This document shows, piece after piece, positions 7,482-47,226 of a stretch of 64,000 nt of DNA. The DNA is taken from NCBI RefSeq assembly GCF_000308555.1, contig NZ_BAFY01000328.1:1-64000 (forward strand), read 5' to 3'. Below the pieces are notes generated by a model. It had not been told where the DNA came from. It was given only the letters and a program-made list of their open reading frames with translations, and did no database searches. This DNA is from Nocardia cyriacigeorgica NBRC 100375 (GTDB taxonomy: Bacteria; Actinomycetota; Actinomycetes; Mycobacteriales; Mycobacteriaceae). Positions within the stretch are counted from its first letter, which is position 1; each line of letters begins with the position of its first letter. The position numbers and the translations under genes are program-made.

Positions 7482-7857
7482 CGCAGAACCCCCTTGCTGC
7501 TCGACTTCCAGCAATCAACGGTACGGTTAATCTGTTGCAGCCGTGGGTGATTCGACAACGTAGACCAGAACGTAACCATCCCGTGGAGGCCGCCATCCGT
7601 GGCGCCCGCACCGCACCGTCCCTGGCATGATGAGGGCCACGTCCGTCGAAGCCGCCCGCCGCCATCCGCTGCGGCTGTGGTCGCGGTTAGTTAGGTCGCA
7701 CCGGTCTCCCGCACAGCGCACGCCCGCGCCGCATCGGCCGGGATCATTATGATCACTACGCCCGTCAACTCCACGTCCGTCCTCGCCCGCTGCGGCTGAG
7801 GCGCCGCAGGGTTCAATCGCCGTGGCGGCCAGTGTGGCCGGTCCGTGCCCGGTGTGA
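7482..7857 (-). other. Gap with no gene recognised
   Basis: This 376-base stretch between two minus-strand genes shows no convincing frame on either strand. It contains a short palindrome GATCATTATGATC near 7740 whose meaning is unknown. It should hold the promoter of the helicase gene at 5472-7481. Confidence 0.4.
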
Positions 7858-8403: not shown

Positions 8404-8957
8404 CGGTATCCCCCTCGCAGATGATCGCCGGAGTGCGATCGGCTGAAACCAGCATGGCATTCGAGGAAATCCGTGCGCCAGGCTTAGCACGGGATTCCTC
8501 GCATTCCCGCTGTCGTAACGGCGTTTTCGACGCCGACGGCGTGTCGTGCCGACAGGGGGCCAAGAAATTTCCCGTCGGCCACTGTCGGTCCACCGGGGTA
8601 GCCACCGTGAACGACGCCGGGGGCGTGGTTGGGCCGCGCAGTATCAGGTGCTGAACCCGCCGACGAGCGTGCCGCCAGGCAGGCCCCAGACCTGTCTCCG
8701 CGAACACGCCCGCGGTGCTCACCGCCGCGGCGCCGACCCCAGCGCGGATTGCAGGACCTCGAGCCAGTGGCTCGACGCCGGCCCAGTCGACTGTTCCCGC
8801 CGATCCGGGCATCACACCGTGCGAAGCAAATGCAACGACATCTGCAAGAACATTCACCAATTATGTTGAACGGAAGCAGATTTCACTGTTGAAGCTGCAA
8901 GGTTCCGGTAAACTTCCTCCTCGGATGCAAACATCATCCGAAAGCAGGGGATCACTC
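8404..8957 (+). other. Divergent intergenic region, no gene recognised
   Basis: These 554 bases separate the Rv3235-like gene and the plus-strand helicase. Open frames exist on both strands but have no ribosome site or recognisable composition. The last 130 bases (about 8820-8950) are clearly more AT-rich and probably carry the helicase promoter. I could not fix a -10/-35 pair with good spacing. Confidence 0.4.
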
Positions 8958-10910
8958 ATGACCGACATTGCTCGTGAGCGCAGACGCCGGTGGGTCGAGC
9001 GCCAACTCGCGGATCTGCCACGGCTCACGGCGGCCCAGCGGAGATTTCTCTCGGTACCGTTGTCCGAGCGCGATTGGCACCTATTGGTCGATCGCGCCGG
9101 CGACAACGAGGGACGAGCGTCAGGGTTCGCGATAGGCCGTACAGGTGTATACGCCCTGGTGTTCACCGATGTGGTCCCCTCACGCGCGTACCTGGCTCGA
9201 GTCCGCAAACATGCCGAGGAGGCCTTCGCGGACTTGCTGTTCGGCCGTGAACAGTTCGTCCCGCACATGCTCGACGTCATCTTGTTGATGAGCTCGGCAA
9301 CGAGGGTGGAAGCGCACGATCAGTTCGTCGCGGTCGACGAATCGACCATCCGCGAAACACTCATCACGGGTGAGACCAAACTGTCGAAGCGTCGTGCCCG
9401 CGAGATCGCCTTGTCGGTGTCGGACCGATTGACCTGGTACCAGCGCATTTCCACCGAGTCCGCGCCCACGGCCGACGCGGTGGCGGCCGACGGCCTGTTC
9501 GGCGAAACGTCACTGGCAGAGGATGCGAGGGCGAACGGACTGGCGCGCCCTTTCCGCGAGTGGATGACGTTCCTCGACCCGGAGCAGCTCGCGCTGGTGC
9601 ACGCGAACTTCCACGGCCCCGCCAGATTCAGCGGCCCGGCCGGCACCGGGAAATCGGTCGTCGCGCTGCATCGAATGGCACATTTCGCCAAACACAATCC
9701 CGGCCGGCTGCTGTTCACCAGCTTCGTCAAAACCTTGCCCGCCTATCACGAGCAGAGCTTCGCCCACCTGGCTCCGCACGCGCGCGGCCGCGCGAAGTTC
9801 ATCGGCCTGCACGCGTGGACGATCGACTTCCTGAAACGCCGCGAAGTCCCCTACTACCTCGACTCCACCATTCGTGAAGACGCCTTCGCCCGCGCCTGGA
9901 GCCGGGCTCGCGAGGTGCTCGGCCGGATCGAAGGCACCGACTACCAGTATTGGCAAGACGAACTGGACCGCACGATCAAAGGCCGTGGACTGGAGACACG
10001 CGACGCGTACAAAGCGATCAAACGCACCGGCCGCGACGGCATTCAACTGCACGGCAGCCGCCGGGATTATGTGTGGGAGCACCTGTATCGGCCGTACCAG
10101 GCACGTATGGCCAACCGCGGCGCCGACGATTTCAACGACATCATCCGCAAGGCCATCGATGAACTGCGGGCCCGGCCATTGGACAGCACCGAAGATTACG
10201 CCATGGTCGTCGTCGACGAGGTCCAGGATTTCACGCTGATGCAGCTGCGGCTGGTGCACCAGATCGCCGGCGGCGGCCCGGATGCGAACCTGCTCATGGT
10301 CGGCGACGGGCAGCAGCAGGTATACGCCGGTGGCTGGCGAATCTCCGATGCCGGAATCCCACTGCAGGGCCGCGGTCGCATCCTGCGCCGGAATTACCGC
10401 AATCGAGAAGCGATCCTGCGCTACACCCAGCAGATCGAGGCGGGAAACAGCGTCGACGATCTCGACGGCGGCCAAGGCTTCGTCCTGCGCGACAGCGACT
10501 CCGTGCTGCCAGGCGGCGAGGCCACAGACCGATTCGTCAGCCGCGCGGAAATCGACACCGTGCTGGTCCGTGCCATCAAGGACTCCGGCCTGCCGGCCAC
10601 CGATATCGCCGTCATCGTCAATACCAGGAAGCAGGCCGAGCACTTCCAAGACGTTCTGGAGCAGGCCAACTTCGCGGTGCTCTCGCTCGAGGAATACGAC
10701 GGCACCCAACTCGACTGCATCAAGGTCGGCACCGTCTACCGGGCCAAAGGCATGGATTTCGCCGCCGTCTTCCATATCGCGGACAAACCCCTCGACACCG
10801 GCCACCTCACCGGTGGTGCCCGCGACCGCGCGGAACTGCTCGCCCGTCAGCGATTGGTGGCGGTGAGCCGTCCACGCGACTACCTGTGGGTCGCGTATCT
10901 GACAGACTGA
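8958..10910 (+). CDS. UvrD/PcrA-like SF1 helicase, paralogue of 5472-7481
   Basis: A 650-residue protein with the same plan as the 5472-7481 product: an N-terminal alpha/beta domain with the shared FLSVPL and DWHLLV blocks (about residues 30-54) and AIGRTGVYALVFT (58-70), then an SF1 helicase with GPAGTGKS at about 226-233, VVVDEVQDFT, LMVGDGQQQVYAGG, NYRNREAI, KVGTVYRAKGMDF and a final AVSRPRD. The lysine of the P-loop is kept but the last residue is Ser instead of Thr. ATG 8958 has AGGGG seven bases upstream; the open frame extends to 8715 without a better start. The next gene begins 4 bases after its stop, so the two may be cotranscribed. Confidence 0.85.
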   Translation: MTDIARERRRRWVERQLADLPRLTAAQRRFLSVPLSERDWHLLVDRAGDNEGRASGFAIGRTGVYALVFTDVVPSRAYLARVRKHAEEAFADLLFGREQFVPHMLDVILLMSSATRVEAHDQFVAVDESTIRETLITGETKLSKRRAREIALSVSDRLTWYQRISTESAPTADAVAADGLFGETSLAEDARANGLARPFREWMTFLDPEQLALVHANFHGPARFSGPAGTGKSVVALHRMAHFAKHNPGRLLFTSFVKTLPAYHEQSFAHLAPHARGRAKFIGLHAWTIDFLKRREVPYYLDSTIREDAFARAWSRAREVLGRIEGTDYQYWQDELDRTIKGRGLETRDAYKAIKRTGRDGIQLHGSRRDYVWEHLYRPYQARMANRGADDFNDIIRKAIDELRARPLDSTEDYAMVVVDEVQDFTLMQLRLVHQIAGGGPDANLLMVGDGQQQVYAGGWRISDAGIPLQGRGRILRRNYRNREAILRYTQQIEAGNSVDDLDGGQGFVLRDSDSVLPGGEATDRFVSRAEIDTVLVRAIKDSGLPATDIAVIVNTRKQAEHFQDVLEQANFAVLSLEEYDGTQLDCIKVGTVYRAKGMDFAAVFHIADKPLDTGHLTGGARDRAELLARQRLVAVSRPRDYLWVAYLTD

Positions 10911-22626: not shown

Positions 22627-24858
22627 TCACGGTGTGTCGGTCCGCTGGATCACCACCAGCTCGTCGCGGGCGCGGCTCGCGGAGACGTAGAGGAGCGACC
22701 TTTCGCGCAACAGCGCATTCGGGTTCTCGCTCTGCTCGATGGTGGCTTTCCCGATGGTTGCGGTGAACTGTGGCCCAACTCCGGTGAGGATGACTCGCGA
22801 GAACTCCATTCCCTTCGCGCGGTGCATGGTGAGCACCGGGACATATCCGGCACCGATGGAGTGTTCTTCGTATTCGGCAGCATCGATGCCGTGTCGGCAC
22901 AGATACCGTGTCACGAACTTGCGGCGCTGACGACTACGAGTCAGTACCGCCAGCGTATTCGGTGCATGACCTGCTGCCAGCCATTCCCGGAGCCGGGCCG
23001 CGATGGCCGCGAGCTCCTCGGAGGCAGGCAGCGTCAGGATGACCGGCGGCGGTCCGAGGCGCGCCGACCGGTATCCGGTGGTCGAGTCCAGCTCGCCTTC
23101 GAGGTCGAGATAAGGCCCGTCTGCCAGGAGGTTCACCGCGAAACGCAAGGTCTGCTCGGTGGTCCGGTAGTTCAAGGTCAACCTGCGCGATCGTCCTACG
23201 ATGTTGATACCCAGATCGCTCAGGCACAGTGGCTCGGTGAAGATCCGTTGGTGTGGATCCTCCGCCACGAAGAGGTCGTCCGGGCCCTCGTCTGCCATAG
23301 CACGGAGGAATGCCCAATGTGTGGCGTCGAGATCTTGCCCTTCATCCACCAGAACGTGATCAGCGATCCTTTCCGCAGTTGTCTCCGCACGCAGTCGCAG
23401 GCACTCCGCTGCGACCGCTAGGACTTCTGGATAACTGGCGAAGCGCCGACGCCTGCAGATCTCGCGGAATTCCTCGACGGTCTGCCATATCCGGACCCGT
23501 TGCGCACGAGTCAAACGAACCTTCCGGCCGCGACGCGGTATTCGCAGATAGTCGGCCTTTGTACGCACTCGCCGAGCGAGAAACACATTGATGTATTCGC
23601 TGTCGAGGAACTCGGCGGACCCGACTCGCTGATCTGGATCTTTGTCGAGCCCGGTGGCTTTCGAAGCCCTGGACCACGCATCGTGGATCGTGCGGTCGCG
23701 AGCGCGGGTGCGCAATGCCGCCGAGGTACGCCTCCCGAGCACATCTGATACCAAGGTATCCAGGTCGTCAGCGTGGTTCACGATATCGTGGGCGAGCTTG
23801 TCGATGCTGCGCACATAGATTCCGGCACCGCCGACAGAGCAGGCAAGCGCGACATCCGGATCGAGTGTTCGCAGGTTCTGATCGAGCACTTGCGCAAGCC
23901 CTGTGTTGAACGTTGTCAGAAGGATTCGCGCGTTCGGGTTGCGCTTCCAGAGCCGGTATGCGCGGTGAATCAGCACGACGGTCTTACCCGTGCCCGCACC
24001 ACCGTACAGTCTGAAAACGCCGTTGTAGTGCCGTTCGGCGTAGCGACGCTGCACAGGGTGCAGAAAGGTTCGCCACGCTGTGAAATCGCCCTCTTCGATG
24101 ACCCGGCGCAATTCCTGGGTGTCGTCGCCGATGTAGGCGAAGTGCATCTTCGAGGTCGGATGGTCGAGCGCGGCCACGATTCGGCGCTCTTCGTCCAGTG
24201 CGTGGTTTACGCCTGTGGTACCGAGGTGGTATCGTCGGCGGATTTCGTCGATCGATCCGCCTGCAGCCAGCTCCAGCAGAACCTCCCGCTGCCAGCTGCC
24301 CGCTTCGATTCCGGCGGAGTGTGCGATATCGGTGAGGGTGGCGTGGTCGGTGGCGGCGATCGCCCGCTCGGCGATCGCCCGATCGAGGCCGAGGTTGTCG
24401 ACGAGATCGCCGGCGGTGTGTCCGTAGCCGGCGAGGATCGAGGGGAGTGGCTGTGCCCCGGGAGCCACGTCGCGGCCGGTGTACTCGAGGCGGGCGGCGG
24501 TGCTCGCGCGGGCGCCGCTGTCATCGATCACACACTCGAGCACACCGGACACGGAGTTGACGCGAAGCATCGAGTTCTGGGCGGCCGCTCGTGCATCCTC
24601 GTGCTTCCACGCGCCGGTGAAGATATAGGTGGTGTTGCCTTCGGCCGGGTCGATACGGAACACGATGGCGCTGTGGTGGCTGTCGATCCGGCCGAGTCGG
24701 ACTCGGTGGTCGCGGGCGTTGTCGACCTGCTCGAGGGCCTGGGAAGCAGCCGAGCCGTTAGCGGTGCGAATGTGGTCCAGAAAGTCGTAGATCTTGGATT
24801 TCGCGGCAGTGCTGAGCTGCCGGGCGCCCGTGATGCGGGCAAGGACTATGTCGGCCAT
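22627..24858 (-). CDS. RelE-like/UvrD helicase fusion (Gabija GajB-like position)
   Basis: A 743-residue fusion. Residues about 15-105 resemble a RelE/HigB-type toxin fold: AAKSKIYDFLDHIR, then DHRVRLGRIDSHHSAIVFRI and YIFTGAWKHEDA. A helical linker (about 140-270) precedes the SF1 helicase: Walker A YGGAGTGKTV at 285-294, VLVDEGQDLDATHW, RLTLNYRTTEQ, LTMHRAKGMEF and YVSASRARDEL. ATG 24858 follows GGGAGGTG. It lies 136 bases downstream of an OLD-type ATPase gene in the same direction, the gene order of Gabija (gajA-gajB), although GajB is shorter and has no RelE part. A full paralogue is at 42775-45021. Helicase assignment is firm, defence role inferred. Confidence 0.85.
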   Translation of the reverse strand: MADIVLARITGARQLSTAAKSKIYDFLDHIRTANGSAASQALEQVDNARDHRVRLGRIDSHHSAIVFRIDPAEGNTTYIFTGAWKHEDARAAAQNSMLRVNSVSGVLECVIDDSGARASTAARLEYTGRDVAPGAQPLPSILAGYGHTAGDLVDNLGLDRAIAERAIAATDHATLTDIAHSAGIEAGSWQREVLLELAAGGSIDEIRRRYHLGTTGVNHALDEERRIVAALDHPTSKMHFAYIGDDTQELRRVIEEGDFTAWRTFLHPVQRRYAERHYNGVFRLYGGAGTGKTVVLIHRAYRLWKRNPNARILLTTFNTGLAQVLDQNLRTLDPDVALACSVGGAGIYVRSIDKLAHDIVNHADDLDTLVSDVLGRRTSAALRTRARDRTIHDAWSRASKATGLDKDPDQRVGSAEFLDSEYINVFLARRVRTKADYLRIPRRGRKVRLTRAQRVRIWQTVEEFREICRRRRFASYPEVLAVAAECLRLRAETTAERIADHVLVDEGQDLDATHWAFLRAMADEGPDDLFVAEDPHQRIFTEPLCLSDLGINIVGRSRRLTLNYRTTEQTLRFAVNLLADGPYLDLEGELDSTTGYRSARLGPPPVILTLPASEELAAIAARLREWLAAGHAPNTLAVLTRSRQRRKFVTRYLCRHGIDAAEYEEHSIGAGYVPVLTMHRAKGMEFSRVILTGVGPQFTATIGKATIEQSENPNALLRERSLLYVSASRARDELVVIQRTDTP

Positions 24859-24994
24859 GTCACCACACCTCCCACCGTTACTGCCGCACCCGACACATTG
24901 TCAACTGCCGGGTTGCCGTCCGCGTATCGGGCAACCGGTCCACCGTCGGGCACTGATACGCGGTCTGCGATCGCCCTCGGTCCGCGACCGCCGG

Positions 24995-26521
24995 TTATGT
25001 TCCTGCACCCCGGACGGGCAGCAGATCGCCGAGCGCCGTGACGATCTGAGTCACTTCCTCCGGATAGGCCTGCGCCCAGGTTGCCAGGAAGGCGGTGGAG
25101 ACGGTGTGGCTGGAGGTGAAGTCGAGATCTTCGCCGATTTGCTGCCAGATCACGTGCCGGTCGCGGTTGGTCAGTCCACGCCGCTGGATCACCGATTTCA
25201 CTTCCTCCTGTCGGTGAACGGGGAGATGAAGCGCGACAGTGAGTTTGGCCGCCAATTCGTCAATACGTTGCAAAACACGATGGAAAACATGCTCTTCCGG
25301 CGCCACCACGCCGGGAAGTGTATAAATGCGCTTGGCGGGGGTGACTCGGGCCGCTTGATCGCCGTCGAGCAGACAGATCGCGGGGAAGTTGGTCGTCGGA
25401 TTCGCATTGTGATGCTCGGTCATCTTCTCGGCCGGTGAAGCACCACCCATCGCGTGGATCTTGACGGCGTCCATTTCGACACCACCATGGGTGCGGAGCG
25501 CGGTCGCGACCATCGATTCGGCGAAAGAGTCTTCGACGAAGATCGCCAATTGTGCGTCGATCTGCCCGGTGATGGTACGCAGCGCTCGCACATCCGGTTT
25601 GCCTTGGATCACTTCGCCACTCAGTGCCGACCAGATCGCGATCGGAGGTAGAGGTGCCAGCGCGTCGTTGGAGTGCGTCGTGAAGATGACTTGGCACGAC
25701 TTTCGTGCTGCGACGTCGATCAGGTACTCGACGATTCGCTGGGTCGCGACGGGGTGGAGGCCGTTCTCGATCTCCTCGATGAAGACGATCGCATTGTCGT
25801 GCGCAGCCTCGATCTCCGCGATCATCCGGATGATGCTCGCTTCACCCGCTCCGAAGTGAAACTCCGAATACGCCTCACCGCGGTGTGTCAGCCCGGTGAA
25901 CATGCTGACCCGGTCCTCGGCATCGAGATAGAGCTGCTGGTACCCGGAGATCGGTTTGCCGAGAATCTTCTCGGCATGCGCAGTGACTTCCACGGGCAAC
26001 TGCTCTTCTTTGACCGCGAGGAACGATCCGGCTGTTGCTTTTCGAAGGTTCTGGCGTTCGGTAGCGGGCAGGGTCCGGTCCACACCGAACAGTCGGACAT
26101 CGCGTTCGACAGCATTGCGGTTCCACTTGAGCCGTTTGAAGCTGGCGGTGCGCGAGACTGGAGACCGAGTGTTGAGACTGCGATCGATCAACTCGTACTC
26201 GATCGACCAATTCTGCATGCTCGAGTCGTATTTGCCGCTCTTGGCGAAGAACCGTCCCGGTGGCACGCTCCGATAGACCAGGGCAGCCGCACCGAGCACG
26301 GTTGTCTTCCCGCCTCCGTTGGGACCGACCAGTGCTGTCACGGGGAAGTCGAAGGTCACTTCGCAATCGACGAATCCTCGCACCCGCCGCAGCGTTATCC
26401 GCTCGAGGTACTTGCGGTAGCTTCGTTTGGTCACCTTGGCCGCCAGACCGTCGATCTGGCTGCGGCGGATCTCGCTCTTGAACTCGGACAACCTGTCCTC
26501 CCACCCCTTGAATGCGTCCAC
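24995..26521 (-). CDS. OLD-family ATPase with TOPRIM domain (GajA-like)
   Basis: A 508-residue protein. The ABC-type ATPase half carries VGPNGGGKTTV (about 65-75), a signature-like FHFGAGEAS (221-229), Walker B FIEEIENGLHP (247-257) and TTHSNDAL (281-288). The second half has TOPRIM acidic residues in FVEDSFAES (about 328-336) and CLLDGDQA (383-390). This matches OLD nucleases and GajA of Gabija, which nicks DNA when nucleotides are depleted. The start is GTG 26521 with a poor ribosome site; no better internal start is seen. The downstream UvrD gene gives Gabija-like synteny. PARIS-type systems also use such ATPases but lack a helicase. Confidence 0.82.
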   Translation of the reverse strand: MDAFKGWEDRLSEFKSEIRRSQIDGLAAKVTKRSYRKYLERITLRRVRGFVDCEVTFDFPVTALVGPNGGGKTTVLGAAALVYRSVPPGRFFAKSGKYDSSMQNWSIEYELIDRSLNTRSPVSRTASFKRLKWNRNAVERDVRLFGVDRTLPATERQNLRKATAGSFLAVKEEQLPVEVTAHAEKILGKPISGYQQLYLDAEDRVSMFTGLTHRGEAYSEFHFGAGEASIIRMIAEIEAAHDNAIVFIEEIENGLHPVATQRIVEYLIDVAARKSCQVIFTTHSNDALAPLPPIAIWSALSGEVIQGKPDVRALRTITGQIDAQLAIFVEDSFAESMVATALRTHGGVEMDAVKIHAMGGASPAEKMTEHHNANPTTNFPAICLLDGDQAARVTPAKRIYTLPGVVAPEEHVFHRVLQRIDELAAKLTVALHLPVHRQEEVKSVIQRRGLTNRDRHVIWQQIGEDLDFTSSHTVSTAFLATWAQAYPEEVTQIVTALGDLLPVRGAGT

Positions 26522-26659: not shown

Positions 26660-29600
26660 GTGCGGGGCGTGGGTGACGGGCCGATAGGGGCGTGGGATCC
26701 GGGCTTGGTGAATCGGGCGGCGAACCTATTCGAGTACCTGACCCGAGTTCAAGATATCGGCACTGCCCGAACCCATGATGTCGCCGGCCTCGGTCCGGTG
26801 ATCTGGTTGTCGGAACTCCCGATTCACCAGGCCATTCGTTATCAGCCGGAGTCCGCTGGCGCACCGTTCCTGGTTGTCGAGAAGGTCCGCCTGGAACAAG
26901 CGCCTCAGCTGGTTGACCAGGCCATCCGGGGGTGGTTGCAGCCAGGCAGGCTCGATGATCCGGAGAACGAGCCGTACCTGCGGGAAATACGAGTGGACGG
27001 GGAGCGCGAGCTCAGTATCGTCGATCACCCGGACGTGGTGGAACGGTTCGAGAGCTGGATCCGAACGTGGCGGCTGTGGGCGGCGCAGACCCGCCGTGAA
27101 TTGCTGGCATCGAGGCTCTACCACAGCCTCTACGACATGTACACGGCCCTGAGTGGGTCGTCGGAGACCCATGAGGCGGTGCTCGGCCTGGGTTGCCTCA
27201 GCTGGAAGCCGAGGAATCACAGCGCAGTGCGACGGCACGTCCTCACCGCGCCGGTCAAGGTCGACTTCGACACCGATTCGGGCACGATCACCGTATCCGC
27301 CGAGGTCGGTGCCTCCGGTCTGGCTGTCGAGCTGTTGGATTTCCTGGAGAATACTCAACTCGCCGCGCCGGGCCTGCTGCGTGCGGCCCAGGATTCCGCT
27401 CGTGATGACGGCATCGACCCGTTCGATCGGCCGGGAATTGCCAGCCTGGTGCGCCGGGTCATCCACTGTATCGATCCGGCGGCGACCTACCAGGACGATA
27501 TGGCGGTCGTGGCACCGGCGTCGCAGCCGTTGGCTGCCTACGCACCCGCATTGATCCTGCGCCAGCGCGGCAGGCGCGGGCTCGTACGGGTGCTGCAAAC
27601 CATTGGCGCGCAGATTCGTCAACGCCGCGAAGTACCCGAGGGCATCCGGAATCTGGTCGATCCCGATTACATTCCGGAGCGGACGCCCACTGTCGACGAT
27701 GGCGCGATCGTCCGGGACGGCACCGACTCGTTCCTGCCGATACAGCTCAACCCCAAGCAGTTGAGCATCCTCGAGCATGTCGATACGAGCGCGCATACGA
27801 TCGTGCAGGGCCCGCCGGGTACCGGGAAAACCCACACCGCGGCCGCGTTGATCACTCATCTGCTGGCACAGGGTAAACGGGTCCTGGTCACCGCGCAGAC
27901 CGACCGGGCGCTGGAGGAGGTGCGCGGCAAGCTTCGTGAAGAGATCAAACCGCTGTGTGTGGCGGTGGTCGGCACCTCCCGCGATGCGTTCACCGATCTC
28001 GAGACAGCGGTGGAGAAGATCTCTACCGCAGCGAGCGATCACGAGCAGGACCGGGCGCGGACCGCGAGAACGATCGAGGCGGCTGGTCAGCGGATCGCCA
28101 CGTTGCGCCAGGAGCGCGCGCAGATCAGGCAGCATTTGCTCCGGTCGCGAGAACGTGAGGTCGCCCATCACGAGTGTGCCGGCTACACCGGGACATTGAC
28201 CGAGATCGTGTTGCGGCACCGCGACGATGCGCCGCGGTATGACTGGCTGGCAGAGCTCGCGGCACCGGGTGCGGACGAACAGCTGCCGGTCGCGCCCGCC
28301 GACATCGAGCAATGGCGCCGGCTCCTGGCCGACGATGCATTGCGGGACCCGGAAGTCGCCGCCCCGCCGTTGCTCACCGTAGGCGAGATCGTGCCACCGG
28401 CAGATGTCGAGCAATGGTTCGCCCGGCATCGAGCCGCGACGCAGCGCTGCCGGGAATACGACCAGGTGGGCCGCACGGAGCTGGTGCGGCGAATCGTCGA
28501 ACTCACCCCTGCTACCAGGAGCGAACTCCGAGCGCTGGTGGCCCGGCTGGATCACACGGGATCGGACCTGTCCCAGGCTCGTGACCCCTGGTATCGCGCC
28601 GCCGTCACCGATATCCGCGCCGGCAGTGCAGGCGAGTGGCACACGCGGGCCGAACACCTCGGGCAGCTGCTGGTCCCGGCGGAACAAAGCGTCGCAAAGC
28701 TCGGCATGACCGACGTCGTTGTGTCCGGGGAGGATCTGGGACCGCTGGTTTCGCTGGCGGAGGCGCTGCTGGCGCGCATCCGGTCGCACGGCGAGATCAA
28801 GACGAACGCCGACGGCTCGCCGAAGATGGGGCTCACAGCGCCGCGGGTGGTCAAGGACGCCGCGCCGTTGTTCGAACGCGTGCGCGTCGATGGGCGCATC
28901 CCCACCTCGGCCGAACAACTCGACATGTTCTGGCAGTACGCCGAAGCATCTCGATTGCTCGCTCGGCTGGACGCAGTGTGGTTCGAACGGCTGACCCCAC
29001 CGACGGGCGGTCCGTTACGCGGGAGGCTGGCGTGGCACCGGGACCGGCTGGCGCAGCTCGGTCAGGTCTTGCGATTCGGCGCTGAGCTCATGCAGGCCGG
29101 ACGCAAGCTCAACCAGTTCGGGCTGCACGAGCCGGACTGGTCCGAACCGCGGACCGTGCGCACATTGGTGGACGCCTTCGATGCGGTCGCCGCCATGGAT
29201 GAGCAGCGGGCGAGCGAGGAACCGATACGCCGCCTACAGCAGCAGCTGGGGGCGGCGTACCACGATCCGCGCAGCACCTCGACCGTTCGCGAGCTCTATT
29301 CCGCGATCGAGCACTCCGATCTGAGCAGATATCGCGCTGCCTACATCCGGCTGACCGAACTCGATGACCTGCGGCAACGGTACCGAGCGCGCCTCGAGCT
29401 CGATGCTCGGATGGGTGCGCTGCCGCGACTTCGGGATGCTATCGAGGCCGATCCACGCGACGAACGCTGGGCCGGCCGGATCGCCGATCTGCCGCAGGCC
29501 TGGAATTGGGCGCGGGTCGCTGCCTGGCTCACTGATCACGCCGACACGGAGATCAACGACCTCTTCCATCGCCTGGACCGCGTCGAGTCCGCCCTGCGGG

Positions 29601-32014
29601 ACGAAGCCACGGAGCTCGCTGTCGCGCGGTCCTGGGAGCGCGCGGTCGGACGACTGACCTTGACCGCACGATCAGATCTGCGCCAGTACGTGCAGCTGGT
29701 CCGCAAACTGGGTAAAGGCAAGGGCCAGCACGCGGTCCGGCGGAAGGCCGCTATCCAGCAGACGCTGGCGCGGTGCCGACCGGCCGTACCGGCCTGGATC
29801 ATGCCGATCTACCGGGTGGTCGAACAGCTCGATATCGAGCAGGACATGTTCGATGTCGTCGTGGTCGACGAGGCGTCGCAGGCCGGGCTGGAAGCTGTCT
29901 TCCTGCAGTATCTTGCGCCGCGGATCGTCGTCATCGGCGACGATCGGCAGGTATCGCCGGCCGCCGTCGGTGTCGATGAGAACCAGCTGCGTGCCCTGGC
30001 GGCCCAATATCTGCCGAACGATCGGTACCGTGCGTCGTTCGAGATACCCCAACGCAGCCTGTTCGACGAGGCGGTGATGCGGTTTTCCGGCCGTCTCCCA
30101 CTGGTGGAGCATCGCCGATGCGTCCCCGAGATCATCGAATTCTGCAACAAGATCGCATACGAACCACAGGGTATCCGGCTGGTACCGGTGCGCCTGTACG
30201 GCGCCGACCGATTGCCCCCCATTCGGACCGTCTACGTGGCGGGCGCGGACAGCACCAAGAACAACGTGAATGTGCTCGAAGCCGAGCGCATTGTCGAGCA
30301 AGTAGTCGAATGCGTCGCAGACCCGCAATACGCGGGCAAGTCCATCGGCGTGATATCGCTGCTCGGCCAGGCGCAGGCGAAACTGATCTGGGACCGGCTG
30401 ATGCAGGCACTGCAACCCGAGGAGATCGCGCGCCGGCAACTGCGCTGCGGCGACGCCGCCGATTTCCAGGGCGCCGAACGCGATGTCATTTTCCTGTCGA
30501 TGGTGAAGGCGCCTGGCCCGGATACCCGCCTCGTCGCGCAGACGCGGGAGCAGATCGTGCAGCGGTACAACGTCGCGGTGTCCAGGGCGCGAGATCAACT
30601 TTGGCTGTTCCACTCGGTGACGCTGGATCAGTTGACCAATCCCGACGATATGCGGTACCAGCTGTTGAAGTACTGCATCGAGACTCAGCAGTCCGATCGG
30701 GTTGTGGCGTCGGGCCGGCCGCAGCCCGCGCCGGCGGACCGGGTGGTCGCGCCGTTCGAGTCGCTGTTCGAGCAGCAGGTGTACAACTGCCTGGTCGAGC
30801 GGGGTTACCAAGTGAGCGCACACTACGACGCGGCTGGATACGACGTCGATCTGGTTGTTATCGGTGATCATGTCAAGCTCGCGATCGAATGCGAGGGCGA
30901 CTGGTGGAAAGGCGCGGAACAATTCCATCGGGACCTCGCGCGACAGCGTGACTTGGAACGGTGCGGATGGCCCTTCTTCCGGATCCGTCAATCGAGGTTC
31001 GTCGTCGACCCCGAAACTTGTCTGGCATCGCTGTGGCAGCTGCTCGACGAGCTGAACATCGCGCCGGTGCCCGAGGAGCCGGAGCCGGCGGCGGAACCCG
31101 TCCAAGACCGGAGCGTGGCGGCGGCCGCGGGGCGATTCGCCGAGCCTGGCGATGAGCCGATACGCGCAGATACTGGATCGTCGGAGGACAGTCCCGCATC
31201 GCCGGCCGACGGGACTGGCGGCGAAGGCAGCAACCGTGCCGCAGTCGAAGCGGAAATGGTCGCGTCGCCAGTCACGGACTTCTCGCATCTGCCGGAGTCA
31301 CCGCCGCGACCAGCAAGCGCCACATCCGTCAGCGATGCTGCGATGCCGTCCATGGGGGGCGTCATCCACACAGTAGGCGGCACCAGCGATGTCATCGTTG
31401 AACCTGAGGTGCCGGTGCAGGACGGGAACGTCGCCGATGGTCCGGTGACAGTGATACTCGAGCAAGAACCGACACCGTCGATCACCGATTACCAGGCTTT
31501 CACCGGATTGCTCGCCTCCACGACATCGGTTGCGGACGACTACTCCCGGTTGATCGCCGACCTGACCAGCGTGGTAAGGGTCGAAGGACCTGTCACCGGT
31601 GGCCGAATTGTCGCGATCTACCTGCGCGAGAACCGCGACGGCGACGTCGCCGCCCAGGAGAAGGCGGTTCTCGACGGGTTGCGGCGGGCAGTCGAAACCG
31701 GCGAGCTCCGCCACGACGACCCGCTCGGCTTCGATGATCCGCTCCGGTTCGCCTACCGGCTTCCCGAGCAACCGGCGACCCGCTGGCGAACTCTGGGCGC
31801 GCGGTCGATCGAGGAGATACCGGCCAGGGAACTGGCCGAGATGGTGGCGCATTGTGCACAACACATCGGCTGGAAAGACCGCGCGGCGCTGATGAAAAAC
31901 GTCACGGCGGATATTGGTCATCCGCAACTGACTGATCGGGCTATCGCGGCACTGGCGCTCGTGTGGCCGTTGGCGCGAAACCTATCCGCGGAACTCGCCT
32001 CCGCACGGTCATAG
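26660..32014 (+). CDS. Giant SF1 helicase-Vsr-like nuclease protein (Hhe-like)
   Basis: A 1784-residue protein. The N-terminal 350 residues are a DUF4011-like or unassigned region. The Upf1/DNA2-type helicase has GPPGTGKT at 384-391, DEAS at about 1070, QGAERDVIF at about 1268 and VAVSRARDQL at about 1305, with a long helical insertion between. A PD-(D/E)xK/Vsr-like nuclease follows (about 1365-1465): GYDVDLVV and AIECEGDWWKG. After a proline/acid-rich linker the end (about 1630-1780) reads like DUF3320: VRVEGPVTGGRIVAIYL and RSIEEIPARELAEMV. This order recalls the single-gene Hhe defence protein. GTG 26660 follows GAGGAGG. It converges with the next gene, overlapping by 6 bases. Confidence 0.82.
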   Translation: MRGVGDGPIGAWDPGLVNRAANLFEYLTRVQDIGTARTHDVAGLGPVIWLSELPIHQAIRYQPESAGAPFLVVEKVRLEQAPQLVDQAIRGWLQPGRLDDPENEPYLREIRVDGERELSIVDHPDVVERFESWIRTWRLWAAQTRRELLASRLYHSLYDMYTALSGSSETHEAVLGLGCLSWKPRNHSAVRRHVLTAPVKVDFDTDSGTITVSAEVGASGLAVELLDFLENTQLAAPGLLRAAQDSARDDGIDPFDRPGIASLVRRVIHCIDPAATYQDDMAVVAPASQPLAAYAPALILRQRGRRGLVRVLQTIGAQIRQRREVPEGIRNLVDPDYIPERTPTVDDGAIVRDGTDSFLPIQLNPKQLSILEHVDTSAHTIVQGPPGTGKTHTAAALITHLLAQGKRVLVTAQTDRALEEVRGKLREEIKPLCVAVVGTSRDAFTDLETAVEKISTAASDHEQDRARTARTIEAAGQRIATLRQERAQIRQHLLRSREREVAHHECAGYTGTLTEIVLRHRDDAPRYDWLAELAAPGADEQLPVAPADIEQWRRLLADDALRDPEVAAPPLLTVGEIVPPADVEQWFARHRAATQRCREYDQVGRTELVRRIVELTPATRSELRALVARLDHTGSDLSQARDPWYRAAVTDIRAGSAGEWHTRAEHLGQLLVPAEQSVAKLGMTDVVVSGEDLGPLVSLAEALLARIRSHGEIKTNADGSPKMGLTAPRVVKDAAPLFERVRVDGRIPTSAEQLDMFWQYAEASRLLARLDAVWFERLTPPTGGPLRGRLAWHRDRLAQLGQVLRFGAELMQAGRKLNQFGLHEPDWSEPRTVRTLVDAFDAVAAMDEQRASEEPIRRLQQQLGAAYHDPRSTSTVRELYSAIEHSDLSRYRAAYIRLTELDDLRQRYRARLELDARMGALPRLRDAIEADPRDERWAGRIADLPQAWNWARVAAWLTDHADTEINDLFHRLDRVESALRDEATELAVARSWERAVGRLTLTARSDLRQYVQLVRKLGKGKGQHAVRRKAAIQQTLARCRPAVPAWIMPIYRVVEQLDIEQDMFDVVVVDEASQAGLEAVFLQYLAPRIVVIGDDRQVSPAAVGVDENQLRALAAQYLPNDRYRASFEIPQRSLFDEAVMRFSGRLPLVEHRRCVPEIIEFCNKIAYEPQGIRLVPVRLYGADRLPPIRTVYVAGADSTKNNVNVLEAERIVEQVVECVADPQYAGKSIGVISLLGQAQAKLIWDRLMQALQPEEIARRQLRCGDAADFQGAERDVIFLSMVKAPGPDTRLVAQTREQIVQRYNVAVSRARDQLWLFHSVTLDQLTNPDDMRYQLLKYCIETQQSDRVVASGRPQPAPADRVVAPFESLFEQQVYNCLVERGYQVSAHYDAAGYDVDLVVIGDHVKLAIECEGDWWKGAEQFHRDLARQRDLERCGWPFFRIRQSRFVVDPETCLASLWQLLDELNIAPVPEEPEPAAEPVQDRSVAAAAGRFAEPGDEPIRADTGSSEDSPASPADGTGGEGSNRAAVEAEMVASPVTDFSHLPESPPRPASATSVSDAAMPSMGGVIHTVGGTSDVIVEPEVPVQDGNVADGPVTVILEQEPTPSITDYQAFTGLLASTTSVADDYSRLIADLTSVVRVEGPVTGGRIVAIYLRENRDGDVAAQEKAVLDGLRRAVETGELRHDDPLGFDDPLRFAYRLPEQPATRWRTLGARSIEEIPARELAEMVAHCAQHIGWKDRAALMKNVTADIGHPQLTDRAIAALALVWPLARNLSAELASARS

Positions 32015-34198: not shown

Positions 34199-34375
34199 TC
34201 CGGCACCTCCTGATCCCCAGCCTGTTCTGCTCTGGAGCCTAGCGCCCTGGTATGACGGTGGGGGCGGCAGATCGGCCGCCGAGATTCGCTGTCTCGGTGC
34301 CGGTCTGGTGCGATGATGAGCTGTCGTGTCGAGTGGGCACCGTGGCATCGGTGCATTGGTGTGAGGGGGCGGTGG

Positions 34376-37300
34376 GTGCCCGAGTCGTTCGTGTGGCAAC
34401 AGGCTGAAGACGAGGAATTCCGTCTCGCTACCGCATTGCGCCGGGTATCTCTGTTCATCGAGCTCGATCTACCCGCGGAAGATATCGAGCGGGCGAGGGA
34501 GCTGTTCGGCCGGCTGATCCATCGATACCGGCATCAATTCGGAGTCGAGCGACTCATCGATCGGTTCCCGGCGTTGACATTGGTCACTCTCATCGGACAT
34601 GCGGCGCTCGCCTACGAGCAGAACAAATACTGGGACACGTTCTGGGCCGAACTCGATCTCCAGCACGATGCCGAGTTCGAAAATCTGTTACGGGCCAAAC
34701 TCAAGCCCCTGCTCGGCAAGTTCGGTCTCCGGGAGTTCCCGGAGCTGAAACAGCAGTACGTCCAGGTGATGGCGGTGCATGCCGGGGTGCCGGTGCATTG
34801 TCTGGGCGATTTGGTGGATGTGATCGAAGATCATATTGCGCACGGGCGCGATCCCAGCGGCGCCGCGGTGTTCGAGTGGCTGACCGAGCCGGGAATGGAA
34901 TATCGGCTCGGTCCGCTCGATGTTCCGGTGCGCAATTTTCTTCGGCACGTCGGCGAGGTCGCGGTGGACATCATCGACCGCATCATCGATTTCGCGGCCT
35001 ATATGCTCGACCATCCCGAGGCGGCCAACGACCTCGATCTGGACACGTCGACGACCGGATTGCCGAATCTGCTGCTCGATGAACTGATCGATCGGCTGAA
35101 GGTGCGTCCGTTCGGATCCGCCACGGTCGAACCGGCTGCGGTGGCTCGGCAGCGGCGGCCGGTGATTTCGTACTCACGCATCGACGATGCGATCGTGCTC
35201 GGGATCCCATATCCGGCGTATTGTCCGGAAACTCCGTGGCTGGTGTCCTTCGATGGTGATGCGCAGAAGGTGTATGCCGAACGTCAGTGGGGATATGGCG
35301 ACGAGGACGACCAGCCTGCCACGGTGGTACATGTGCTTCGCCGGGTTCGTCAGATCGTGCTGGATCATCCCGAATCAGGTGCTCACCATCGGATCTCGCT
35401 GATCGACAAGGACAACCCGCTGCTGCTGTTCGACAGCGCCGGTCGCCACATCTCCGCGCATTCGCTCCTGCCACGCGATGAGGTGATCGTCGTCTATCCG
35501 CGCGCGGCGGAGCTGCTGGATGTGCGCAGGGGCCGTCCGGTACCGGTGCTGGAGGAATGCACGCCATCCGGATGGGAAGAGTGGCGGGCGCAGGTCTGCG
35601 ACCTACGCGATGTCGACGCAGTGCGGTTGAAGCCCGAGCGGGGCAAGCCTGGACCGGCACGGCAGACCCGGCCGACCGGCGCGGCGGAACTGGAGCTCCC
35701 CGAGCCCGTCGACGGAGTGATGACGCGCAGTGGCCTGCCGGTGTACGGCGAACGGCCGACCGTCGCGCTCCCCCGCAGCGGCGCCGGACCTACGGTGTGG
35801 CGGGCCCGGGTACGCAGGTCCGAAACCGGTGACTGGCTGGCCGATGATGAATGGGAGTCATCGGACGAGCCGACCGAACTCGACCCTTTCGAGGGCCTCG
35901 ATACCGGGTTGCTCGGACTGTTCGACGTGGTTGTCAGTGGCCCGCTCGGTGCGGACCTGCGGCACACCTTGTTCCTGGCCGAGGGTCTGACGGTGGACCA
36001 TGGGGTCGAATTCCGGCTGCCGGACGGTGACGGTCTCACACCGAGCCGAACCGAGCTCGCCGCGCTGACTCCCCTGACGGTGGACCGGGACGTGCTCGAG
36101 TTCGATAGAACGACCCGGGAAGCCGAGGTCCGGGTGCGATCCGGTGCCAGGCAGGAGCGGCTGGTGGTGCGCCCGCCGCATATCGCTGTGCGGGTCGATA
36201 AGGTCGGTGCACCGGCGCGTTGGCAGACCGCGGCGACGGTGCTGACACCGGAGGACCTGGCCGAGCACGCGGTCGTCGCGGTACGGGTGCCGGGTGAGGT
36301 CGAGGTGGACATCGTGCTGGCCGACCACGCCCGCGAGATCGTCCAGATCGAGCAACCGCAGGTCAGCAGGGGAAACCTCTTTCACGTGCCCACCCGGGCA
36401 TTCGTCGATACCGCCCGGCGGTTGCAGCACACCGCGCTGCTGGCTCGGATCGATACGGCCGATGCGACAACGCATCGCGTCGTCGTTGCGGTGATCCGGC
36501 CACCGCTGCTGTGCACGGGTGCCGCGGTCGACGGCGGCCGCCTCGTATGTTGTGGGGTGCGCGGCGCCGACGATCTCGCCGCCTACATCTGGGCCGATAC
36601 CGCGCCCTGGCGGCCACCGGAGCTCGTCCCGATTACTCCTGATGGGTACGGCGACCTGCCCGCGGATCTGATCGACGCCGGTCCTTTGACAGTTCAGGTC
36701 TTCATCGACGATCCCTGGTCAGTGACGCCGACGCCGGCACACCCGGACTCCACCGCTGTTCATGTCGACCAGCCCGGATGGATGACCGATCCAGATCCGG
36801 CGCGCGAACAGCTGTCGCGATTCCTGGCGGGGCGAGGTGATCCGCCGGCCGGGTCATCGGCACTTACCGATGTCTGGACGGTGCTGGCCGGCCCGGTGAA
36901 CGACGATCATGCGGGGCGGGCAATCCAGGCAGGCCTGGTCAGGGTGTTGCGTGCGGATCCGCGGTCCTCACTGGAGGCGCTGGAACGAAGCACCCTCGCC
37001 CAGGAATCCTTTCCGGCATTGCTGATCCGAACCGGCCTGGTGGAACAGGATTTCGGCTCACCGATCCGGCTCGGCACGGCACATTCCAATCCGTGGCTGG
37101 GGTGTCTCATGGATATTGCCGATCTGCCTTGGGTGAAGATGCGGTCTCCCGATGCGATCGGGGAGCTGGTCGGCAGCCTGCGGAATCTGGGCGGCCAGAC
37201 TTTGCTGAACCTGCTGATGGGTAACCGAAGAGGCCTGCGCACAGGCGTGTTCGAGGCAGGGAGCGTGGTGCTGCATCCGCTCGAACCAGAGCGGATCGAC

Positions 37301-37756
37301 GAGATGAAACGAGAGCTCGAGATCGTGCCGGAGGCGCTGCTGGACGACAGCACTCGGCAGGCGGCCATGTTCGAGGCATTCGCGCAACGCATGGTCTGGC
37401 AGAACGACCCCTGCTGCATGATGCTCGCCAGCGGCACGGCCGGACTGTTCACTCCGTTATGGCGCGCTTCGCCGCGAGTGCATGACATCGTCAGGGCCAG
37501 AAACGAAGTACTCGACGGTGCCGACTGCACCACGCACCGCTGGTTGCTGATGTCGCTGCAATCGCTGCTGCTCGCAACCCTGGCCCGGCTCACCGCCCGC
37601 GGCCTGCTTCCCGCTTCGGTTGTGACCGATTCGACGCGTGAGGCATGGGCGCGGCTGGCCGAACTCTGTCCAGCGATGGTCGGCGCGGATGTGCTCATCG
37701 CCGATGCGCTCGCAAGCTTTGAACTGAACGACAACCTGATCGGAGTCCAGCCGTGA
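34376..37756 (+). CDS. Large unknown protein paired with DUF1998 helicase (DruH-like position)
   Basis: A 1126-residue cytosolic protein with no recognisable catalytic motif. The first 250 residues are helical (WQQAEDEEFRLATALRR, LIHRYRHQFGVERLIDRF), the middle is beta-rich with many charged strands, and the C-terminal 250 are helical again (LAQESFPALLIRTGLVEQDF). GTG 34376 follows GAGGGGG by seven bases; the upstream ATG at 34313 has no ribosome site. Its stop overlaps the start of the DEAH/DUF1998 helicase gene (GTGA). A long protein of unknown fold followed by a giant DUF1998 helicase is the layout of type III Druantia (druH-druE); that identity is inferred from order and size only. Confidence 0.65.
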   Translation: MPESFVWQQAEDEEFRLATALRRVSLFIELDLPAEDIERARELFGRLIHRYRHQFGVERLIDRFPALTLVTLIGHAALAYEQNKYWDTFWAELDLQHDAEFENLLRAKLKPLLGKFGLREFPELKQQYVQVMAVHAGVPVHCLGDLVDVIEDHIAHGRDPSGAAVFEWLTEPGMEYRLGPLDVPVRNFLRHVGEVAVDIIDRIIDFAAYMLDHPEAANDLDLDTSTTGLPNLLLDELIDRLKVRPFGSATVEPAAVARQRRPVISYSRIDDAIVLGIPYPAYCPETPWLVSFDGDAQKVYAERQWGYGDEDDQPATVVHVLRRVRQIVLDHPESGAHHRISLIDKDNPLLLFDSAGRHISAHSLLPRDEVIVVYPRAAELLDVRRGRPVPVLEECTPSGWEEWRAQVCDLRDVDAVRLKPERGKPGPARQTRPTGAAELELPEPVDGVMTRSGLPVYGERPTVALPRSGAGPTVWRARVRRSETGDWLADDEWESSDEPTELDPFEGLDTGLLGLFDVVVSGPLGADLRHTLFLAEGLTVDHGVEFRLPDGDGLTPSRTELAALTPLTVDRDVLEFDRTTREAEVRVRSGARQERLVVRPPHIAVRVDKVGAPARWQTAATVLTPEDLAEHAVVAVRVPGEVEVDIVLADHAREIVQIEQPQVSRGNLFHVPTRAFVDTARRLQHTALLARIDTADATTHRVVVAVIRPPLLCTGAAVDGGRLVCCGVRGADDLAAYIWADTAPWRPPELVPITPDGYGDLPADLIDAGPLTVQVFIDDPWSVTPTPAHPDSTAVHVDQPGWMTDPDPAREQLSRFLAGRGDPPAGSSALTDVWTVLAGPVNDDHAGRAIQAGLVRVLRADPRSSLEALERSTLAQESFPALLIRTGLVEQDFGSPIRLGTAHSNPWLGCLMDIADLPWVKMRSPDAIGELVGSLRNLGGQTLLNLLMGNRRGLRTGVFEAGSVVLHPLEPERIDEMKRELEIVPEALLDDSTRQAAMFEAFAQRMVWQNDPCCMMLASGTAGLFTPLWRASPRVHDIVRARNEVLDGADCTTHRWLLMSLQSLLLATLARLTARGLLPASVVTDSTREAWARLAELCPAMVGADVLIADALASFELNDNLIGVQP

Positions 37757-40700
37757 CCGACCGCCTCGATCCCTTGGCTGCCGCCGCCGATATCGAAGCA
37801 GCCTACAGGCGGTATCTGAAGACGCTGATCGGGCCGCGCGACCCGGCTCTGGCGTCGGCCTTCGACCAGGCGGTCGACGATACGTCTCTGCTGACGAAGG
37901 GGCCGCTGCTCGAGCTCACCCCGCCATACGAGCCGGGAGCCTCGCTGCGCCAGCTCATGACCGAGGGCGTGCTGCATCCGGGCTTCGTTGAGTTCGAGGC
38001 CACGCTGTCGCTGGATCGGCCGTTGTATCGCCATCAGGAGGTGGCGATACGCAAAGCGGTAGCCGGGCGCAACCTGGTCGTCAGCACCGGCACCGGTTCC
38101 GGCAAAACCGAGAGCTTCCTGCTGCCGATCCTCAACGAGCTCATCACCCAGCGTGCCGCAGGCACGCTCGGCCCCGGCGTGCGGGCACTGCTGCTGTACC
38201 CGATGAACGCGTTGGCCAATGACCAGCTCCAGCGACTACGCGATCTGCTGTCGGCGAGCCCGGACATCACCTTCGGCCGATACACCGGCGAAACCAAAGA
38301 ACGCCGGGCCGACGCGGAATCAGCCTTTCACACCACGTACCCGGGTGCCGAACGGCTGCCGAACGAACTGCTCAGCCGGGAGGAGATGCGCGAATCACCA
38401 CCGCATATCTTGCTCACCAACTACGCGATGCTCGAGTATCTGCTCCTGCGTCCGCACGATATGGAACTCTTCGACGGCGAGTATGCGGGCAACTGGCGAT
38501 TCATCGCGCTCGATGAGGCGCATGTCTATGACGGCGCGCAAGGCTGCGAGGTGGCTTTGCTGCTGCGCCGAGTGCGCGATCGCGTCGCTCGCGATCGTGC
38601 GGTGCAATGTATCGCCACGTCGGCTTCGCTGTCGGGCACTTCCGATCAGGATCAGGGCCGGGAGGCGACCGCGTTCGCTCGCAAGCTCTTCGATGCCGAT
38701 TTCGAATTCGTCGACGACGATCCCGGTCGCCAGGACTTGGTGACAGCCACCCGCTTACGTCGCCGCGACGCACCGACCTGGACCATCGATGACGACAAGC
38801 TACTCGAACTCGCCGACCCCGAGGCCGACCTCGGCTGGATCACCACCGCATCCGGTTGTGCCGACCTTGCCGAAGCATTGCACCGGGAGCGCCGGATCGC
38901 CGATGTCAAGGCCGCGGCACTGGCGGGCCCGGTGGACGTGGCTACGCTGGCCGGCAAGTTGTGGCCCGGCGATCAGTTGGCCAAGCCGAAGTTGGAAGCG
39001 TTGGTAGCCCTCGGGTCCAAGGTCTTCGGCAGCGACGACAATCCCGTACTGTCGGCGCGCTATCACCTGTTCGTCCGCGCCACCGAAGGTGCGTTCGTCA
39101 GCTTCACCGACGAGGGACCGCGAGTATTGCTCAGCAGGCATGAGGTCGACCCGGAGACCGGGCGTGCGGTCTTCGAGTTCGGTGCCTGTGGACGGTGTGG
39201 CGCCGTGCACCTGGCCGGTGAGCTCTTCCCGGTCGAAGGCCGTCATTACTTCCGGCCGGCCAAACAGGATTCAAGTGTCAAATGGCTGGTGCTGACGGAT
39301 GGTGCCACCGACGACACCATAGACGAGGACGAAACGACCCTTGCGGCGGATCGGGGCACTGATGTCGGCACCGGCCGGCGCATCCTGTGCACCGGGTGCG
39401 GTGCGCTCGGTCGGGGTGCGTCGGGCTGCGCACCGCGGTGTCCGGGTGGACCGGCATTGAACGTTCGTGAGCACCGTGCCGCACAGCGGGTGATGAGCAC
39501 CTGCACTGAATGCGGCGCTCGCTCCGCGCAGGTGATCCGCAGGTTGCGCACCGACACCAACGCCGCGCCTGCGGTTATCACCACCGCGTTGTATCAGCAT
39601 TTGCCGGCTGCCGATGACGCATCCGCCGATTTCGTCGGCGGCGGCCGGAAGCTGCTGATGTTCTCGGACTCACGCCAGTCGGCGGCGTTCGCCGCGCCGT
39701 ATCTGGCCGCAACCTACGGCCGCATGCTGGTCCGCCGGTATCTGCTCCGGGCACTCGAGGATCCCCGAAATGCCGGTGAGCCACTGTCTGCCGAGGATCT
39801 GGCCGATGGCGCGCGTGCAATCGCCCAGGCCGCAGGGCATTTCGACGAGCAGGCAACCCGCGTCGCGAAGATGCGCGAAGTGAATCCGTGGGTGATGGCC
39901 GAACTCATGTCGATGGATCAGCGTCAGTCACTGGAGGGGCTCGGCCTGATGGCGGTGACGCTGGTGCACTGCCGCAAGGCGCAGGTACCGCGCGGGTTCA
40001 CCGCGCTGGGATTGACCGGCGATCAGTTCTGGGGTCTGCTCGAAGAATTGATGAAGACGATCCGGTTGCAGGGTGCCATGACCGTGCTGGACGGCGTCGA
40101 TATCCGAGACACGATCTTCGAGCCCCGCAACATCACCGTTCGGATCCGCTCGATGAATTCCGACCGTGCGCGCAGGATTATCAGCTGGCGTCCCGGAAAC
40201 CGGCCAGGAACGACCAACAATCGAATCCTGCTGGTGCGCAAGGTGCTCGCGGCGCTGGGCAGCGCGGTCGAAGCCGAGACGGTGCTCGACAAGTGCTGGG
40301 AATTCCTATTGCGACCGTGTCCCTGCCATACGTTCTTCGCCGCGGAGAACGATCGTGCCGGTGGGGGCACCGTCTATCGGCTCGACCAGGCCTGCCTGCG
40401 CATTCTGCCCGGATCGGAGCGCACGTGGTACCGCTGTTCGGCCTGCCGTCGGTTGACCACACACAACATCCTGCAATTGTGTCCGCACGGTGCCTGTGAC
40501 GGCACGGTGGAGGAATACGCCATTCCCGATCTGGATCGCGACACCAACCACTACCGAACGAGCTACCGCACTTTGGAGCTGGTGCCGCTGTCGGCACACG
40601 AGCACACGGCGCAGTGGGTCGCCGATCAAGCAGCGGAGGTGCAGCGCCAGTTCGTCGACGGCCAGATCAACGTGCTGTCGTGCTCGACGACGTTCGAGCT

Positions 40701-47180: not shown

Positions 47181-47226
47181 TTTAACGACGTGGCGGGCGA
47201 AGCTATCCGGACACGAGAGGAGGCGT

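Follow-up and report, generated by a model that had tools for sequence, protein, structure and literature searches.

An HEC-04-type OLD gene and an ArmD-like RelE-UvrD helicase gene form a recurrent pair in Nocardia

Three described systems bear on the locus reported here. In Gabija, an OLD gene (gajA) precedes a UvrD-type helicase gene (gajB), and the two proteins form a 4:4 complex. A review of the OLD family defines Class 2 OLD by such a UvrD-type helicase context (PMC10568477). HEC-04 is a defence gene whose homologue IbfA lowers phage yield as a single gene (PMC12111858). ARMADA type II has the gene order armC-armD, and its ArmD, itself termed GajB-like in print, is a RelE-like/UvrD fusion (Bell et al. 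2025, PMC12458937), so that RelE-UvrD fusions as such are already known. Deletion of any of the four ARMADA II genes, or the ArmD substitution K266A, abolished defence, D454N caused a partial loss, and the cells were viable upon infection, the system being reported as non-abortive (PMC12458937). The same authors call the N-terminal domain of ArmD a predicted RNase toxin domain, and the section of their paper that lists mutants names no mutant of it (PMC12458937). In this work, we describe a HEC-04-family OLD gene followed by a RelE-UvrD helicase gene, HEL1, in Nocardia cyriacigeorgica NBRC 100375 (assembly GCF_000308555.1, contig NZ_BAFY01000328.1, positions 1 to 64,000; this whole stretch of 64,000 nucleotides is called the window). 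ArmD, HEC-04 and Gabija are known; the pairing of a HEC-04 OLD with a RelE-UvrD helicase appears to be new: we did not find it described in the titles and abstract openings searched, which cover subscription journals thinly.

The genes under study are the following (all on the minus strand):

24995-26521, minus strand: OLD-type ATP-binding cassette (ABC) ATPase and TOPRIM protein of the HEC-04 family (IbfA-like), 508 amino acids, GTG start (open reading frame (ORF), PADLOC, Pfam AAA_21)
22627-24858, minus strand: HEL1, ArmD-family RelE-UvrD helicase, 743 amino acids, ATG start (ORF, Pfam UvrD, neighbours, AlphaFold)
24529-24858, minus strand: predicted RelE-fold N-terminal domain of HEL1, residues 1-110 (AlphaFold, fold matches, conservation)
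24670-24672, minus strand: codon of HEL1 residue 63, serine in place of the arginine typical of the family
24064-24528, minus strand: helical middle region of HEL1, residues 111-265 (secondary structure, substitution rates)
22630-24063, minus strand: superfamily 1 (SF1) UvrD-type motor of HEL1, residues 266-743 (Pfam, VIA-align, motifs)
42775-45021, minus strand: HEL2, second ArmD-family RelE-UvrD gene, 47% identical to HEL1 (start set by alignment; the longest ORF starts at 45108)

An initial annotation of this DNA had seen an OLD ATPase/TOPRIM gene followed by a UvrD gene on the same strand and taken them for a Gabija-like pair. Both ORFs are indeed where it placed them, and the gene order is that of the Class 2 context rule (OLD gene, then UvrD-type helicase gene, one strand), so that the OLD protein would be Class 2 by context, yet it is not GajA by profile. 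The PADLOC HEC-04 profile covers it over its full length (728 bits, residues 14-502), whereas the best GajA model among the matches listed (25 of 139 families) reaches 44.6 bits and aligns to parts of the ATPase only; Gabija membership was rejected on this comparison, and the helicase is ArmD-like. The protein also matches Pfam AAA_21 (E 2.2e-20) and has its Walker A motif at residues 66-73. E330, D386 and D388, which we take to be the TOPRIM-type acids, are invariant in 11 of 11 aligned HEC-04 proteins (the window's included).

HEL1 combines a UvrD helicase with an N-terminal RelE-like domain and belongs to the ArmD family. Pfam places UvrD N at residues 272-540 and UvrD_C at 667-737, and the helicase motifs are intact (Walker A GAGTGKT, DEGQD and motif VI). 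The full-length AlphaFold model (predicted local distance difference test, pLDDT, 86.8) aligns in VIA-align to UvrD 2is6 with Z 35.7, with UvrD, PcrA, Rep and AddAB relatives on top; GajB is absent among the best 50 rows, which carries no weight for or against GajB kinship. On the HEL1 core, 52 bits is the highest score of any GajB model among the matches listed (25 of 41 families), and a NERD+UvrD model scores 90 bits. We collected 149 hits to RelE-UvrD proteins (138 distinct), of which 117 are full-length (at least 680 amino acids, with a start codon) and 93 remain below 86% mutual identity. An ArmC-like match lies at most 1 kilobase (kb) upstream, on the same strand, in 70 of these 93, and four others are second copies behind an ArmC-like gene. 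Where read, the ArmC-like genes encode DEAD/MZB helicases of about 2100 amino acids, of the YprA/DruE kind. A search of the window's genome for a full-length ArmC returned only a DruE-like gene (see below) and weak partial matches. We therefore rejected the presence of an ARMADA II locus in the window: HEC-04, not ArmC, stands upstream of HEL1, and no full-length ArmC was found genome-wide.

The pair is not confined to the window. Among 150 Nocardia genomes scanned (the window's included), HEC-04 occurs in nine and ArmD-type helicases in 46, and at six of the nine HEC-04 loci, the window's among them, the helicase gene lies directly downstream of the OLD gene on the same strand; the co-occurrence search that the initial annotation had proposed as a check was thus fruitful. 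Two lineages are seen: the window and Nocardia cyriacigeorgica EML 446 (G440, locus L013) form the first, and four genomes (G466, G488, G489 and G437) the second, in which the OLD is about 63% and the helicase 42-44% identical to the window's. L013 is also the only one of the 78 RelE-UvrD loci first collected to carry an OLD gene in its flanks. In a further Nocardia genome (G436) the HEC-04 OLD gene stands tail to tail with a distant RelE-UvrD gene, the last gene of an operon (L141, 3-8989) in which it is preceded by genes for an Eco57I-type methylase, an AAA_5 (McrB-like) protein and a McrBC-family protein. At broader taxonomic range, HEC-04 was found in two of 396 genomes of the phylum (the window's own and a weak relative), one of 394 of the class (the window's own) and seven of 401 of the family, six of them Nocardia. 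Nine plasmid records have a HEC-04 match, of which we read the four closest (44-67% identity; Streptomyces, Cellulomonas, Gordonia and Paraburkholderia). Within the genomes and plasmids searched, the pair is a Nocardia speciality, because six of nine Nocardia HEC-04 loci are paired and all four plasmid loci are unpaired.

Could the two genes be chance neighbours in a defence island? HEC-04 would then act solo, and HEL1 would be an extra ArmD copy working with another system (e.g. the Druantia III-like one below) or alone. A HEC-04 homologue does work as a single gene (PMC12111858), close HEC-04 relatives are found without such a helicase at the four plasmid loci read, ArmD-type genes are frequent in this genus (46 of 150 genomes), often in the same region as the pair, and 136 bases separate the OLD stop codon from HEL1 in the window, both genes being on the minus strand. 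We nevertheless consider chance rather unlikely since (i), same-strand adjacency recurs at six of nine loci and in two divergent lineages, (ii), the intergenic gap is only 16-17 bases in the second lineage and, (iii), at two loci a HEC-01 ATPase gene and a DUF4276 gene also precede a RelE-UvrD gene. A search of 24700-25150 found no sigma-70-like promoter and one weak terminator-like match on the opposite strand, which speaks neither for nor against co-transcription.

The initial annotation had also seen RelE-like residues at the N-terminus of the helicase (the motifs that it quoted are HEL1 residues 52-68 and 82-89), and at the level of fold it was right. An AlphaFold model of the N-terminal domain, built from 64 family members (pLDDT 77), retrieves RelE-superfamily toxins: Foldseek ranks YoeB first (E 2.8e-3 at a probability of 1.00, with no row at E 0.001 or lower) and the best VIA-align row is Thermus thermophilus RelE (Z 10.5, root-mean-square deviation 2.3 over 85 residues), followed by RelE, YoeB, YafQ, HigB and ParE chains. 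By sequence the kinship is not seen: no toxin family (RelE, ParE, YoeB) is among the 15 Pfam families matching the 64 domains at E 1 or below, the domain profile found nothing meaningful among solved structures (best E 0.075), and hhalign comparisons with one YoeB and one RelE sequence of Escherichia coli lacked significance (each with a probability near 0.2 on a scale of 0-100). Based on the models, HEL1 residues 1-110 are thus predicted to have a RelE fold. For YoeB on the ribosome, PMC3814384 assigns Glu46 as the base and His83 as the acid, and gives Arg59 and Arg65 as necessary or as stabilisers of the transition state. The register in which E43, R57, R63 and H86 correspond to YoeB Glu46, Arg59, Arg65 and His83 was deduced from the hhalign YoeB alignment and the fold match (2a6r), of which the last aligned pair is HEL1 86 with YoeB 83; the RelE hhalign alignment gave a different register and was not used. 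These four residues are present in 109, 109, 106 and 102 of the 117 full-length proteins, respectively.

The paired copies depart from this pattern. HEL1 and its G440 counterpart carry R63S, so that in the deduced register HEL1 has E, R, S and H and not all four residues that match the YoeB catalytic ones; the change falls within the stretch that the initial annotation had quoted (..SHHSAIVFR), at an arginine that is otherwise near-invariant. The second paired lineage has R57Y together with H86T or H86A, and E43D in one member. Altogether, the site is altered in six of six paired copies (four of four after redundancy removal), as compared with eight of the 70 rows next to ArmC; these eight are four first copies of tandems, three proteins in which E43K is the only change, and L079. 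HEL2 has an intact site (E, R, R, H). We also compared columns conserved at 95% or more across a background of 84 proteins, from which the paired copies, the first copies of tandems and L079 (misaligned) were left out: the window copy differs at three and the second lineage at four to five of 12 near-invariant N-terminal columns, and they differ at three and 11-12 of 89 conserved helicase columns, while HEL2, which itself belongs to the background, agrees with both sets throughout. The ratios of nonsynonymous to synonymous substitution rates (dN/dS) between the window and G440, which are rough values from one genome pair, are 0.126 for the RelE-fold domain, 0.276 for the middle region (the fastest-changing part of HEL1) and 0.126 for the motor, as compared with 0.018 for the RelE-fold domain of HEL2 and with 0.044 and 0.133 for the two halves of OLD. 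The RelE-fold domain of HEL1 thus appears to be under purifying selection, and not as a standard YoeB-like active site.

Site loss is not limited to the pairs. Thirteen Nocardia genomes gave more than one match, and we read all of them except G409, where the matches are two fragments. Some of the 12 are close relatives and not independent cases: ten have exactly one E/R/R/H copy, two have two, and none is without an intact copy. Of 33 single-copy Nocardia genomes, seven were taken; six are intact and one is altered. When the RelE-fold columns are excluded, a tree of 43 rows needs at least five changes to account for the altered state (R57, R63 or H86 changed; 14 rows). We had considered loss of the RelE-like site as a rule of OLD-type pairing and dropped it, two HEC-01-linked copies being intact.

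These residues bear directly on the mechanism advanced by the initial annotation, a toxin released upon DNA sensing. In this reading, the OLD-helicase pair would sense DNA and thereby release or activate the RelE domain, and mRNA cleavage by this domain would halt the infected cell. The RelE/YoeB fold of the domain model fits this idea, HEL1 keeps E43, R52, R54, R57 and H86, both HEC-01-linked RelE-UvrD proteins retain the four site residues, and the domain of ArmD is a predicted RNase toxin domain for Bell et al. (PMC12458937). However, HEL1 lacks the match to YoeB Arg65, which PMC3814384 describes as necessary, the second lineage lacks the matches to both Arg59 and His83, the residue next to H86, where YoeB has Tyr84, is D in most of the family but E in HEL1 and A or N in the second lineage, and ARMADA is reported as non-abortive (PMC12458937). 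The idea of a released toxin is therefore weakened and we judge it improbable, although HEL1 still has three of the four residues. Alternatively, HEL1 could be degenerating after the loss of ArmC from a former ARMADA II locus, as the lack of a full-length ArmC-like gene elsewhere in the genome, the change in the RelE-like site and the long branch of HEL1 might suggest. This is very unlikely: the open frame is 89% conserved with respect to G440, with dN/dS of 0.13-0.28, the helicase motifs are intact, and one further genome has the same arrangement, as do four more in which the helicase is divergent.

We thus propose that the pair is a two-gene anti-phage unit, Gabija-like in its working and not Gabija by descent, a reading that we hold with about equal parts of belief and doubt. 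The HEC-04 OLD would be the effector, its ABC ATPase gating a TOPRIM nuclease that cuts nucleic acid. HEL1 would engage or unwind phage DNA, such as replication or recombination intermediates, and thereby license or feed the OLD nuclease. The RelE-fold domain would no longer be an mRNA-cleaving toxin and may be kept as a scaffold or as a binding surface, its partner being possibly nucleic acid, the ribosome or OLD. Because IbfA lowers phage yield alone (PMC12111858), the helicase would be an enhancer or a specificity factor for OLD. The unit is supported by the full-length HEC-04 match, the solo defence of IbfA, the intact Walker A and TOPRIM-type acids, and the recurrence of the pair; the ArmD kinship of the helicase by its ArmC-adjacent relatives (70 of 93), as in ARMADA II, where armD deletion or K266A abolish defence; and the non-toxin reading by the altered site in six of six paired copies of a domain that is still constrained (dN/dS 0.126). 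For the pair itself we infer a defence function, a physical interaction, a DNA trigger, the loss of RNase activity and the division of labour.

Several observations weigh against this proposal. The helicase is not obligatory: two of the nine Nocardia HEC-04 loci (G476 and G478) have no RelE-UvrD neighbour, and the four plasmid loci have no annotated helicase within 6 kb and no ORF matching HEL1 or HEL2. As the pairs lie in defence islands, their adjacency may be fortuitous. The altered site extends beyond the HEC-04 pairs to some tandem and some Druantia-side Nocardia copies, tandem first copies behind ArmC differing at four of the 12 N-terminal columns and the unpaired Nocardia copies L014 (second copy), L028 and L080 at four, two and five, and HEL1 itself keeps three of the four site residues. 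Finally, the trees do not discriminate between one and two origins of the pairing. In the ArmD tree, the helicases of the two paired lineages, both long branches, group together with support of 99 (98 on 34 rows). When the window lineage is removed, the second falls outside the Nocardia-Mycobacterium-Rhodococcus rows, a tree grouping the window lineage without the second is equally good (p 0.517), and without the RelE-fold columns the joining drops below 80 and is flagged as long branches meeting. The OLD tree modestly rejects a single clade of paired OLDs (p 0.029).

RelE-UvrD genes are also found beside other defence cores. In two Promicromonospora loci (L051, 5855-10196; L056, 5856-10184), a RelE-UvrD gene shares its operon with the genes for an ATPase (HEC-01A) and for a DUF4276 protein (HEC-01B); PADLOC scores these two at 306 and 88 bits, respectively, in L051, the one of the two loci that was scanned. 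In Nocardia G399 a RelE-UvrD gene follows an operon that includes DrmA and DrmB (796 and 228 bits, respectively), the identical ORF layout is seen in G536, and G513 has a similar helicase. The Nocardia operons L165 (1920-15510) and L167 (3440-17130) contain genes for a TmtA-like helicase, a UvrD helicase, DrmA, DrmB and RelE-UvrD (profiles for L165 only). It is tempting to speculate, tentatively and with some reserve, that RelE-fold UvrD helicases are a transferable motor module placed on unrelated cores (ArmC, HEC-04 OLD, HEC-01 ATPase and DUF4276, DrmA-DrmB, McrBC and methylase); multi-copy Nocardia, which usually have one intact site, the others, including the six HEC-04-paired ones, having partly lost it, may then hold RNase-competent and RNase-dead versions for different partners.

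The window contains further defence-related genes, among them a Druantia III-like pair on the plus strand (34313-42705):

34313-37756, plus strand: gene of 1147 amino acids, DruH-like by position and size only, overlapping the DruE gene
37753-42705, plus strand: DruE-like superfamily 2 helicase with MZB domain, Druantia III-like (PADLOC DruE1 594 bits, Pfam)

The 1147-amino-acid protein has no Pfam or PADLOC match; homologues of it lie 5' of DruE in L031 and L073. HEL2 is convergent with the DruE-like gene, a layout repeated in the Nocardia loci L014, L027, L028, L033, L080, L136 and L148. The gene for a 1784-amino-acid SF1 helicase with an MTES_1575 nuclease domain (26660-32014, plus strand) is divergent from OLD, the two start codons being 138 bases apart, and it is also kept beside the pair in L013. 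At 47176-55656 (plus strand) an N6 adenine methylase gene is followed by HsdM-, HsdS- and HsdR-like genes (names from ORF reading; the profile scan was of the first gene only, N6_Mtase), and a protein kinase gene follows at 55661. Two more UvrD-type helicase genes (5472-7514, minus strand; 8715-10910, plus strand) are about 41% identical to each other and just 27-28% identical to the motor part of HEL1.

The pair matters in two ways. The ArmD domain is a predicted RNase in print and ARMADA is reported as non-abortive; natural copies that keep the fold and lose catalytic residues offer a direct probe of what the domain does. The pair also blurs the line between stand-alone and helicase-linked (Gabija) OLD proteins, as it joins a solo defence family to a helicase of different origin. 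Its likeness to described systems is in each case partial. With HEC-04/IbfA (PADLOC PDLC04149; PMC12111858) the OLD shares a full-length ATPase-TOPRIM match (728 bits); HEC-04 is however known as a one-gene defence, and the window's OLD has a RelE-UvrD helicase downstream. Like the ArmD of ARMADA II, relatives of HEL1 sit after an ArmC-like gene, both in Actinomycetota and on a plasmid of E. coli, but HEL1 itself has no adjacent ArmC, sits after a HEC-04 OLD and has an altered RelE-like site. In the HEC-01 loci, similarly, a RelE-UvrD gene comes directly after genes for an ATPase and a DUF4276 protein; there, these two parts are on separate genes and the RelE-like site is intact. Residues 1-110 share their predicted fold with RelE, YoeB, HigB and ParE, and the family at large has E, R, R and H at the positions matched to the YoeB site; differences are the helicase fusion, the missing match to Tyr84, the missing sequence-profile match and, in HEL1, the lost match to Arg65. 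Gabija, finally, has the same order of an OLD gene and then a UvrD-type helicase gene on one strand, whereas among the profile matches listed neither OLD nor HEL1 is closest to GajA or GajB, and HEL1 has a RelE-fold domain and a middle region in addition.

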